A DNA stretch of 64,000 nt, from positions 1,488,001 through 1,552,000 of the forward strand of contig NC_015732.1 of the NCBI RefSeq assembly GCF_000219725.1, in the 5' to 3' direction. The notes beneath the pieces are model-generated. The model ran no database searches. It had not been told where the DNA came from and saw only the letters and a list, made by a program, of their open reading frames with translations. Shown piece by piece: positions 48,516 to 50,096 of the stretch (its first letter is position 1; each line of letters begins with the position of its first letter). The position numbers and the translations under genes are program-made. Origin of the DNA: Gracilinema caldarium DSM 7334. GTDB lineage: Bacteria; Spirochaetota; Spirochaetia; Treponematales; Breznakiellaceae.

Positions 48516-49416
48516 TGCCGATGGATACCTTTTATTACATAAAAACTCAGGGCTTACCTCTTTTGATGCTCTTTATCAGGTAAAACGAGCCTTAAAAACA
48601 GGGAAGGTCGGTCATACGGGGACTTTAGACAAGTTTGCCGAAGGCTTATTAGTGCTTGTGATTGGAAAATATACATCCCTTGTTCCCATTTTTAATGAGT
48701 TGGATAAAGTATATATTGGTACCATTCATTTTGGTAAAGAAACCGATACGCTAGACCCAGAAGGTACGGTTGTTTGCACCGCCCCTGTACCCCTACGAGA
48801 TCGAATTTTCGCAGTACTCCCTTCATTTTTGGGAACCCAGATACAAATTCCTCCTGCATATTCGGCAATTCATATCAACGGTCAACGGGCCTCTGAACGG
48901 ATGAGGGCAGGTCAAGCGGTCGAGATGCAGGGCCGGGAAATTAGGATACATGAACTCGAAGTGCTGCATTATGAAGAACCGCGGCTTACCCTGAGAGTCC
49001 ATTGTTCAAAGGGGACCTATATTCGTGCCTTAGCCCGGGATATCGGCAGAGCGGCGGAATCCTGTGCCTACCTTGAGACCCTGCATCGTGTGGCAGTAGG
49101 CCCCTTTACCGATACCGATGCGGTGGATCCAGAATCTGGAGATAGGGGGGTGACACAGCTACAGGAAGCTCTTAAGCCAATAACCCCTGAGCTCTTTCAT
49201 CAACTTAATATTCCAATAGTACTTCTCGATAGAGTTGACAAAACCTATGTTCTGCAGGGTAGGCCTTTAGATCCCCTCCTTAAGGACCATGCACTGCCTC
49301 AAAGTAGTACTCTGCTTGGCCTTTTTTCTTCTGAGCATAAGTTGCTCGCTCTTATCGAGAAAGCCAGCCAGGGTAGAACCGGAGCATGGAGCTACAAACA
49401 TGTATATCCACATTGA
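48496..49416 (+). CDS. truB: tRNA pseudouridine-55 synthase TruB, 306 aa
   Basis: Converts U55 of the T-loop of tRNAs to pseudouridine. The start region LLLHKNSGLTSFDALYQVKR and the catalytic-aspartate motif VGHTGTLDKFAEGLLVLVIG (Asp near residue 45) are diagnostic, as are VYIGTIHFGKETDTLDPEG and CSKGTYIRALARDIG. Start ATG 48496 is in the end of rbfA with GAGGAT as Shine-Dalgarno. It ends the operon on its own; the TTGACT promoter for the following region overlaps its last codons. Confidence 0.94.
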   Translation: MPKAASNADGYLLLHKNSGLTSFDALYQVKRALKTGKVGHTGTLDKFAEGLLVLVIGKYTSLVPIFNELDKVYIGTIHFGKETDTLDPEGTVVCTAPVPLRDRIFAVLPSFLGTQIQIPPAYSAIHINGQRASERMRAGQAVEMQGREIRIHELEVLHYEEPRLTLRVHCSKGTYIRALARDIGRAAESCAYLETLHRVAVGPFTDTDAVDPESGDRGVTQLQEALKPITPELFHQLNIPIVLLDRVDKTYVLQGRPLDPLLKDHALPQSSTLLGLFSSEHKLLALIEKASQGRTGAWSYKHVYPH

Positions 49417-49440
49417 CTTTTCTATAAAATTCGGTAAACT
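49413..49440 (+). promoter_or_regulatory. Promoter upstream of the structured RNA candidate
   Basis: TTGACT (49413-49418), a 16-base spacer and TAAACT (49435-49440). A transcript would start near 49447 and run into the multi-helix region. Confidence 0.45.
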
Positions 49441-49446
49441 AGTCAG

Positions 49447-49690
49447 GAAGTAATCTTTAGATTTTCTAAAGGACATAAAGATCTGCAATATCTGTCAATT
49501 GCGTAGGTTATTCCGCGGTAGTTTGTGAAACTGCACCGGTTTAATGATGCTTAACTCGTCGAGGATGCATTATTGAACGGGCGGAACCTGCAGATAGTAC
49601 AAGGGCTTTGCCTCAAACCCCGGGAAAGCTTTGCAGTACTACTGCACGGTACTTGTCGCACAGATATTGTCGCCTGAAGGCCGGTACAAT
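49447..49690 (+). ncRNA. Candidate structured RNA (or rpsO leader) of unknown type
   Basis: This is the only ~300-base gap without a gene, and it folds extensively. CTTTAG/CTAAAG (49455-49460/49466-49471) form a first hairpin. TTCCGC/GCGGAA (49511-49516/49581-49586) enclose two hairpins: AGTTT/AAACT (49520-49524/49528-49532) and a 12-bp stem (49539-49550 with 49567-49578). A second multi-helix block has ACAAG/CTTGT (49599-49603/49652-49656) enclosing GCTTT/AAAGC and GCAGT/ACTGC. No RNase P, tmRNA or SRP signature is present. It could be an autoregulatory S15 leader or an independent small RNA, since rpsO seems to have its own downstream promoter. Pairings were found by eye. Confidence 0.45.
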
Positions 49691-49695
49691 ATAGT
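49667..49695 (+). promoter_or_regulatory. Promoter of rpsO
   Basis: TTGTCG (49667-49672), a 17-base spacer and TATAGT (49690-49695). The predicted start near 49702 lies directly before the Shine-Dalgarno AAGGAG (49703-49708) of rpsO. Confidence 0.5.
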
Positions 49696-49716
49696 AGTTT
49701 GCAAGGAGATTTGTAT

Positions 49717-49986
49717 ATGGCATTAACAAAGCAGGACACCGTATCGATTATTACCAAATTTGGTAAATCTGAAAAGGATACGGGTGCCACAGCAGTTCAG
49801 ATTGCGCTTTTAACCGAACGGATCAATCAGCTTACAGAACACTGTAAACAATTCAAGAAGGATAAATCCGGTCAGCGAGGCCTTCTCGTGCTGGTTGGTC
49901 AGCGCCGGCGCATGCTCAAGTATATGCAGCGGACCAATTTAGAAGGGTATCGTTCTTTGATTAAGGAATTAGGAATCCGAAAATAA
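49717..49986 (+). CDS. rpsO: 30S ribosomal protein S15, 89 aa
   Basis: Primary 16S rRNA-binding protein of the 30S platform. The sequence has the standard length and family segments: GATAVQIALLTERINQLTEH and QRGLLVLVGQRRRMLKYMQR. ATG 49717 has AAGGAG 8 bases upstream; an in-frame ATG 18 bases earlier is inconsistent with the family. It is followed by a terminator and then pnp, the common rpsO-pnp order. Confidence 0.96.
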   Translation: MALTKQDTVSIITKFGKSEKDTGATAVQIALLTERINQLTEHCKQFKKDKSGQRGLLVLVGQRRRMLKYMQRTNLEGYRSLIKELGIRK

Positions 49987-49995
49987 GGCTGCATA

Positions 49996-50047
49996 AAGCC
50001 CGGTTCTGTCGGAAAGGCGCGGTGCCCAGCCGACGCCGGGCTTTTTT
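49996..50047 (+). terminator. Intrinsic terminator after rpsO
   Basis: GCCCGG (49998-50003) pairs with CCGGGC (50036-50041), with an inner GTCGG/CCGAC stem, and TTTTTT follows (50042-50047). It lies 10 bases after the rpsO stop. Confidence 0.85.
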
Positions 50048-50052
50048 CATCC

Positions 50053-50096
50053 ATAGGGTATAAAAATAAGTATTTCTGCTTATTTTTATACCCTAT
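50053..50096. repeat. Perfect 18-bp inverted repeat upstream of pnp
   Basis: The arm ATAGGGTATAAAAATAAG (50053-50070) is exactly complementary to 50079-50096, with an 8-base loop. It is A+T-rich and lacks a U-tract, so it is not a classical terminator. It stands in the position of the RNase III hairpin of the E. coli pnp leader. Confidence 0.85.

Follow-up and report, generated by a model that had tools for sequence, protein, structure and literature searches.

A probable rpsO leader RNA formed from the remains of ribF in Gracilinema

Introduction

Structured RNAs directly upstream of rpsO, the gene of ribosomal protein S15, are known from E. coli, Thermus, Geobacillus and others. Passages of PMC7247131 describe a three-stem junction as one of the two rRNA sites imitated by such S15 leaders, and according to PMC5100602 S15 regulators arise easily. 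A term search of the main texts of PMC4137082 and PMC7247131 found no mention of spirochaetes or Treponema. Two further kinds of system are close to the case described here. In operons with internal promoters, a sigma-70 type promoter within an upstream gene feeds the downstream gene; among transcribed pseudogenes and functional spacers, former coding sequence comes under noncoding constraint, a theme of PMC2753554 and PMC3164680.

Here we analysed the gap between truB and rpsO in Gracilinema caldarium DSM 7334 and its relatives. Similar to the S15 leaders, the Gracilinema element is a structured RNA directly upstream of rpsO and contains a three-stem junction, but it has neither an Rfam match nor a constant G-C/G-U stack, lies for the most part far from the Shine-Dalgarno sequence, derives from a dead gene, and has S15 only as a candidate target. 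Its putative promoter, of the sigma-70 type, also lies within an upstream gene, ribF; in contrast to other internal operon promoters, it is fixed at single synonymous codons in five families and outlives its host gene. The ribF relic resembles transcribed pseudogenes in being ex-coding sequence under noncoding constraint, and differs in that it is a candidate leader acting in cis on the essential gene beside it, with a structure of its own that possibly pre-dates the death of ribF. In the open-licence literature we found no report of a ribF-internal rpsO promoter or of a pseudogene-derived rpsO leader; the main text of the T. pallidum transcriptome paper PMC12223175 names neither ribF nor rpsO.

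The truB-rpsO gap holds a ribF pseudogene

The window, that is, the whole analysed stretch of 64,000 nucleotides (NC_015732.1, positions 1,488,001 to 1,552,000, numbered below from its first base), sits in a 3.24-Mb single-contig genome. Its gene order is infB-rbfA-truB-gap-rpsO-pnp, in which TruB, S15 and RbfA were confirmed by Pfam, and infB and pnp are presumed from their recognised translations. The features of the gap are listed in Table 1. No protein gene was detected in the interval 49441-49720, which agrees with the gene-free gap reported by the first-pass annotation of this sequence. The same annotation had seen no likeness to RNase P RNA, tmRNA or SRP RNA, and indeed no Rfam family matched the window or the interval, in the latter case even at E<=1. 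The size and multi-helix shape of the element might suit a diverged housekeeping RNA (6S, RNase P, tmRNA or SRP), all the more as no 6S RNA was found in this genome; given the lack of an Rfam match at E<=1, the ribF ancestry described below and an RNase P RNA elsewhere in the genome (271.6 bits), this identity is highly improbable, with tmRNA and SRP covered by the Rfam scan of the window only.

Table 1. Features of the truB-rpsO gap, in window coordinates
Feature	Position	Strand	Remarks
ribF relic	49410-49690	+	second half with internal deletion, shifted frames and stops; aligned to the intact ribF of G017
Putative promoter TTGACT-N16-TAAACT	49413-49440	+	9/12 match; in the former ribF frame; activity inferred
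rpsO 5' leader (inferred)	49447-49716	+	start set about 7 nt past the -10 box; no + strand terminator from promoter to rpsO
P1, 5' strand	49486-49495	+	pairs with 49660-49669 and closes the fold; two-sided changes in 2/10 pairs
P2, 5' strand (AGG, 3-nt bulge, TTCCGC)	49505-49516	+	two-sided changes in 3/9 pairs
P3 hairpin	49518-49534	+	site of the internal ribF deletion; no two-sided changes, covariation support weak
P4, 5' strand (12-bp stem)	49539-49550	+	pairs with 49567-49578; two-sided changes in 5/12 pairs
P4 tip CTCGTCGAG	49555-49563	+	from ribF codons
P4, 3' strand	49567-49578	+	hand alignment, ribF alignment
P2, 3' strand (GCGGAA, CCT)	49581-49589	+	final base shared with the foot of P5
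P5, 5' strand	49589-49600	+	pairs with 49636-49646; two-sided changes in 2/11 pairs, L002 left out
P5 loop segment AACCCCGG	49616-49623	+	invariant in four species; from ribF codons
P5, 3' strand	49636-49646	+	arm-swap test, hand alignment
P1, 3' strand	49660-49669	+	hand alignment
Conserved tail GTCGCCTNAANNCCGGT	49669-49685	+	from the codons for ribF PPPGRY
Shine-Dalgarno AAGGAG of rpsO	49703-49708	+	sequence
rpsO (ribosomal protein S15)	49717-49986	+	Pfam PF00312, E 4.5e-33

In most relatives, the gap holds ribF, which encodes FAD synthetase; an open ribF frame lies upstream of rpsO at 48 of the 82 loci compared (L001-L082), as well as in genomes G017 and G245. The gap of Gracilinema can be aligned with the second half of this gene, from DFS..FSKLSGK to PPPGRY, an ancestry overlooked in the first reading. 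The catalytic half has been deleted, a further deletion lies inside the remainder, and stops and frames that shift between lineages interrupt what is left. With homology to ribF in the position of ribF and the coding capacity lost, the interval is a ribF pseudogene. The same search for FAD_syn (PF06574) gave a match above cut-off in none of the four Gracilinema genomes and in 13 of 15 other genomes; the sole weak match in Gracilinema is one that we take to be a NadR-like protein. Flavokinase (PF01687) was uninformative, as it matched in none of 19 relatives and scored nothing even where ribF is intact. In all four Gracilinema genomes, truB ends on the TGA of TTGACT. Given this common junction and the lack of FAD_syn in each of the four, the ribF deletion most likely occurred once, in the ancestor of the genus. 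Separately, FAD_syn above cut-off is also missing from two genomes of another genus (G038 and G043, 98-99% complete).

Comparison of the relic between lineages revealed a pattern unlike that of a coding gene. Across the codon positions of ribF, identity is flat (65/74/71% between L001 and L002) versus 73/85/43% in truB. A diverged RibF fragment that is still translated would account for open stretches of 79 codons in L003 and 69 codons in L004; yet the stops, the lineage-shifting frames, the flat codon-position identity and the loss of the catalytic half leave it scarcely any likelihood. Identity in the core amounts to 63-71% between lineages, whereas the shuffled mean is 45-47%; at fourfold sites, identity is 26-51% for truB, rbfA and pnp and 55-66% for rpsO, the last being not far below the relic, which counts against the leader reading. 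The flat codon positions and the core identity above fourfold sites, combined with the compensatory changes described below, point to an interval still under selection, on RNA rather than protein.

A putative rpsO promoter lies within ribF codons

The promoter-like pair that had been noted ahead of the gap is present, as TTGACT and TAAACT, and conserved in all four Gracilinema genomes. Its hexamers, with a spacer inside the 16-18 nt range, have the make-up expected of a sigma-70 type promoter, and the truB stop TGA (49414-49416) falls within the -35 box. A second rpsO promoter, proposed at 49667-49695, is a 9/12 match in the window only, and scans of L002 and L003 did not return it; it is not conserved.

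In all 49 ribF-bearing loci, the promoter segment lies within the ribF frame. In loci that encode the common amino acid, the codons are frozen, namely ATT (48/48), GAC (49/49), TTT (49/49), AAT (26/26), AGT (48/48) and AAA (37/37), and, two SSS-motif serines and one GxFDG aspartate excepted, the promoter codons have the highest codon-conservation scores of the gene. The SSS motif of intact ribF (alignment columns 214-216) forms a second conservation peak (AGT 45/49, AGC 47/49), which may need no nucleotide function because two steps separate AGY from TCN serine codons. Furthermore, TTGACTTT is found at 28 of 28 rpsO-linked ribF loci from five families, a set not to be summed with the 49 loci, as some genomes repeat (e.g. 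L110, L033). It is weakened in L130, altered at the ribF site of L132, which has a different site further down the locus, and missing from a second ribF copy with no rpsO nearby. A search of 56 genomes for the promoter 24-mer with one mismatch allowed gave matches in 37, a single one in each except G017, which has two, and did not find the reversed pattern at all; G000 differs by more than one mismatch. The corresponding segments of the putative promoter in intact Breznakiella ribF are TTGACTTTTC and TTCAGTAAA. Among loci without ribF, L007 and L031 retain the promoter, L061 and L064 have a similar one, and others carry a TTGACA-type promoter near rpsO (e.g. L015, L030, L045, L069). Given its linkage to rpsO across the order and its survival after independent ribF loss, we infer that the ribF-internal pair serves as the rpsO promoter.

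Fold of the interval and its covariation

The interval 49441-49720 folds to -89.8 kcal/mol, where its shuffles average -72.6 (z -3.5; 1 of 200 as good), and its opposite strand folds at z -1.1. The 12-bp stem of the first-pass annotation was recovered exactly in place as P4, and its TTCCGC/GCGGAA pair at 49511-49516/49581-49586, within P2; together with P3, these helices form the three-stem junction. For the block that had been drawn as three helices (49599-49656), a single long hairpin, P5 (49589-49646), is the better reading because relatives keep that form, and the closing helix P1 had been overlooked.

The element lies between truB and rpsO in four of four Gracilinema genomes. Since the cores of L003 and L004 share 93% identity and L002 and L005 are one contig (L005 was dropped before counting), only three lineages are independent. 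Single sequences of the four species fold at z -4.8, -2.3, -5.5 and -3.5; the modest value belongs to L002, the reverse strand of which reaches z -2.5, and this counts against the leader reading. Under RNAalifold, plain MAFFT alignments not fitted to the structure gave -49.2 kcal/mol for L001, L002 and L004 versus -19.9 +/- 3.5 for column shuffles (z -8.4, 0/200), and z -6.7 (0/200) when L003 replaced L004. The reverse strands of the alignments also beat their shuffles (z -5.5 and -5.1), an excess that mirrored helices would give. In arm-swap comparisons, arms of P4 and P5 from the same lineage pair better than arms swapped between lineages; P1 has this advantage for L003 and L004, P2 just for L001, and P3 for no lineage. 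In a hand-made alignment fitted to the structure, which underlies all pair-change counts, 186 of 197 cells pair, with two-sided changes in 12 of 52 pairs and one-sided changes in 8 of 52. Such two-sided changes occur in P1, P2, P4 and P5 (Table 1). The small number of lineages, the reverse-strand excess, the missing arm-swap advantage of P3 and the hand fitting behind the pair counts weigh against the leader reading. Taken together, these data support a conserved structured RNA upstream of rpsO with compensatory changes.

The fold might still be the by-product of a decaying pseudogene in which only the promoter is functional, as the ribF ancestry with its stops and frameshifts is clear, and the blocks CTCGTCGAGG, AACCCCGG and CCGGT come from conserved ribF codons. 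We consider this unlikely, given that identity, after a common ancestral deletion, still clearly exceeds the shuffled and fourfold levels, that 12 pairs changed on both sides, and that none of 200 shuffles matched the consensus fold.

The length of the fold is constant, about 250 nt up to the CCGGT block, and the spacer to rpsO is variable. In L002, an additional stretch of about 100 bases separates the fold from rpsO, another point against the leader reading. This compact fold of constant length with a promoter of its own could also be an independent, trans-acting small RNA that lies upstream of rpsO by chance. However, scans of the window, L002 and L003 showed no + strand intrinsic terminator separating the RNA from rpsO, the link between promoter and rpsO holds across the whole order, and within the genus the element always lies directly 5' of rpsO, so that such an RNA is quite improbable. 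Of the two readings offered at first, a new small RNA or an rpsO leader, the leader is the better one.

Two side observations concern the sequences next to rpsO. A GTACCCAA or GTTCCCAA block stands just ahead of AGGAG, in the last 25 bases before rpsO, in many relatives (e.g. L007, L045, L069) and is missing from the window; it is possibly a short translational operator. Downstream, an 18-bp perfect inverted repeat with an 8-nt loop (50053-50096) lies between the terminator-like repeat of rpsO (49987-50052) and pnp; in each of the four species, segments around it fold at z of about -5 to -7, and it presumably resembles the RNase III-type pnp leader hairpin of E. coli.

Possible traces of the fold in intact ribF

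Model R1, from which L003 was left out as it was from the sequence-only model R2, was run as a covariance search on 390 genomes of the order and returned matches at E<=1 in 15 of them. Outside the genus, only G017 (2.9e-6) and G245 (0.002) matched between truB and rpsO, both inside an intact ribF; in the remaining nine genomes, and for a second match in G017, neither truB nor rpsO is present at the matched site. These off-site matches, mostly short ones to the P5 loop segment, were taken as chance. The label 'spirochaete-specific' proved too wide, as among these genomes the complete fold was found in the four of Gracilinema only, and the widespread part is the promoter.

Some signals of structure were nevertheless seen in intact ribF. 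Over 49 loci, ribF folds at z -1.30 past the promoter versus -0.37 and -0.20 ahead of it, and the intact ribF of G017 alone folds at z -4.7. R1 aligns over its full length to L075 and L079; with filters off, the long matches vanish, and R2 gives L059 and L073 higher scores than R1 does. L073, a MAG labelled Treponema denticola, also has a very stable fold (z -8.1) in the ribF-rpsO spacer just before rpsO. For helix tests, eight near loci picked by eye were enlarged to 12 beforehand. In fixed register, 9.25 of 12 are paired for P1 in this near set versus 7.05 after synonymous shuffling, with six of the 12 loci at p<=0.05 and at most one of 12 in slid registers; the register itself was derived from the R1 alignment of some of the tested loci, among which L067, L075 and L079 are closely related. 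Over 36 testable loci, the same six are the only significant ones. An unbiased scan of the near set ranked P3-like pairing first and third among 6555 window pairs; over all 49 loci, unrelated segments also score, and in fixed register P3 is not significant. A label-swap scan placed the box minima of P1 and P5 only near the 5% level. In other families, P1 gave no signal (mean z 0.21, n 20; P3 -0.40), and P5 gave none in intact ribF.

These results are no more than suggestive of a fold that predates the loss of ribF. It is conceivable, though we hold it tentatively, that the rpsO leader was an RNA hidden in ribF, its bases also coding for the second half of FAD synthetase and its promoter likewise lying in ribF codons. 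If so, loss of the RibF protein in Gracilinema left the RNA and the promoter under selection, exposing an overlapping function.

Putative model of the rpsO leader

We consider it likely that rpsO has this interval as its 5' leader, that the leader arose from what remained of ribF, and that it is transcribed from the ribF-internal promoter and acts in cis. Initially, a truB-ribF-rpsO arrangement, common across the order, would have had rpsO transcribed from the sigma-70 type promoter within ribF. In the Gracilinema ancestor, deletion of the catalytic half of ribF would then have fused truB to this promoter, leaving truB to end on a TGA within the -35 box. Afterwards, with the reading frame and a portion of the middle gone, the remaining ribF was presumably retained as a noncoding RNA, with P1 closing the fold around the P2/P3/P4 three-way junction and the long hairpin P5. 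Transcription would start near 49447 and yield a leader of about 270 nt acting in cis on rpsO.

What such a leader would do can be framed in three ways. It may bind S15 and thereby throttle S15 synthesis; with equal and still limited likelihood, it may shield the untranslated RNA from RNase and Rho or keep the start site or Shine-Dalgarno sequence accessible, for which no ligand would be needed; some other leader role is a little less likely than either. S15 autoregulation is a plausible candidate role, and is favoured by the position, the three-stem junction and the ease with which S15 regulators originate. It is disfavoured because no stacked G-C/G-U pair keeps a constant place, no helix position being G-U in all species, and because ribF-less relatives manage with short rpsO leaders, a finding that counts against the leader reading as well.

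Conclusion

In summary, the interval provides a traceable case in which a protein gene dies and the regulatory information written in it persists. Retention of the promoter would explain the continued expression of rpsO after ribF loss, and the relic adds a new candidate to the diverse leaders known for S15. The ribF-internal promoter, present at every sampled rpsO-linked ribF locus in five families, offers a test bed for overlapping coding and regulatory selection, and a warning that conservation at the codon level need not reflect the protein.
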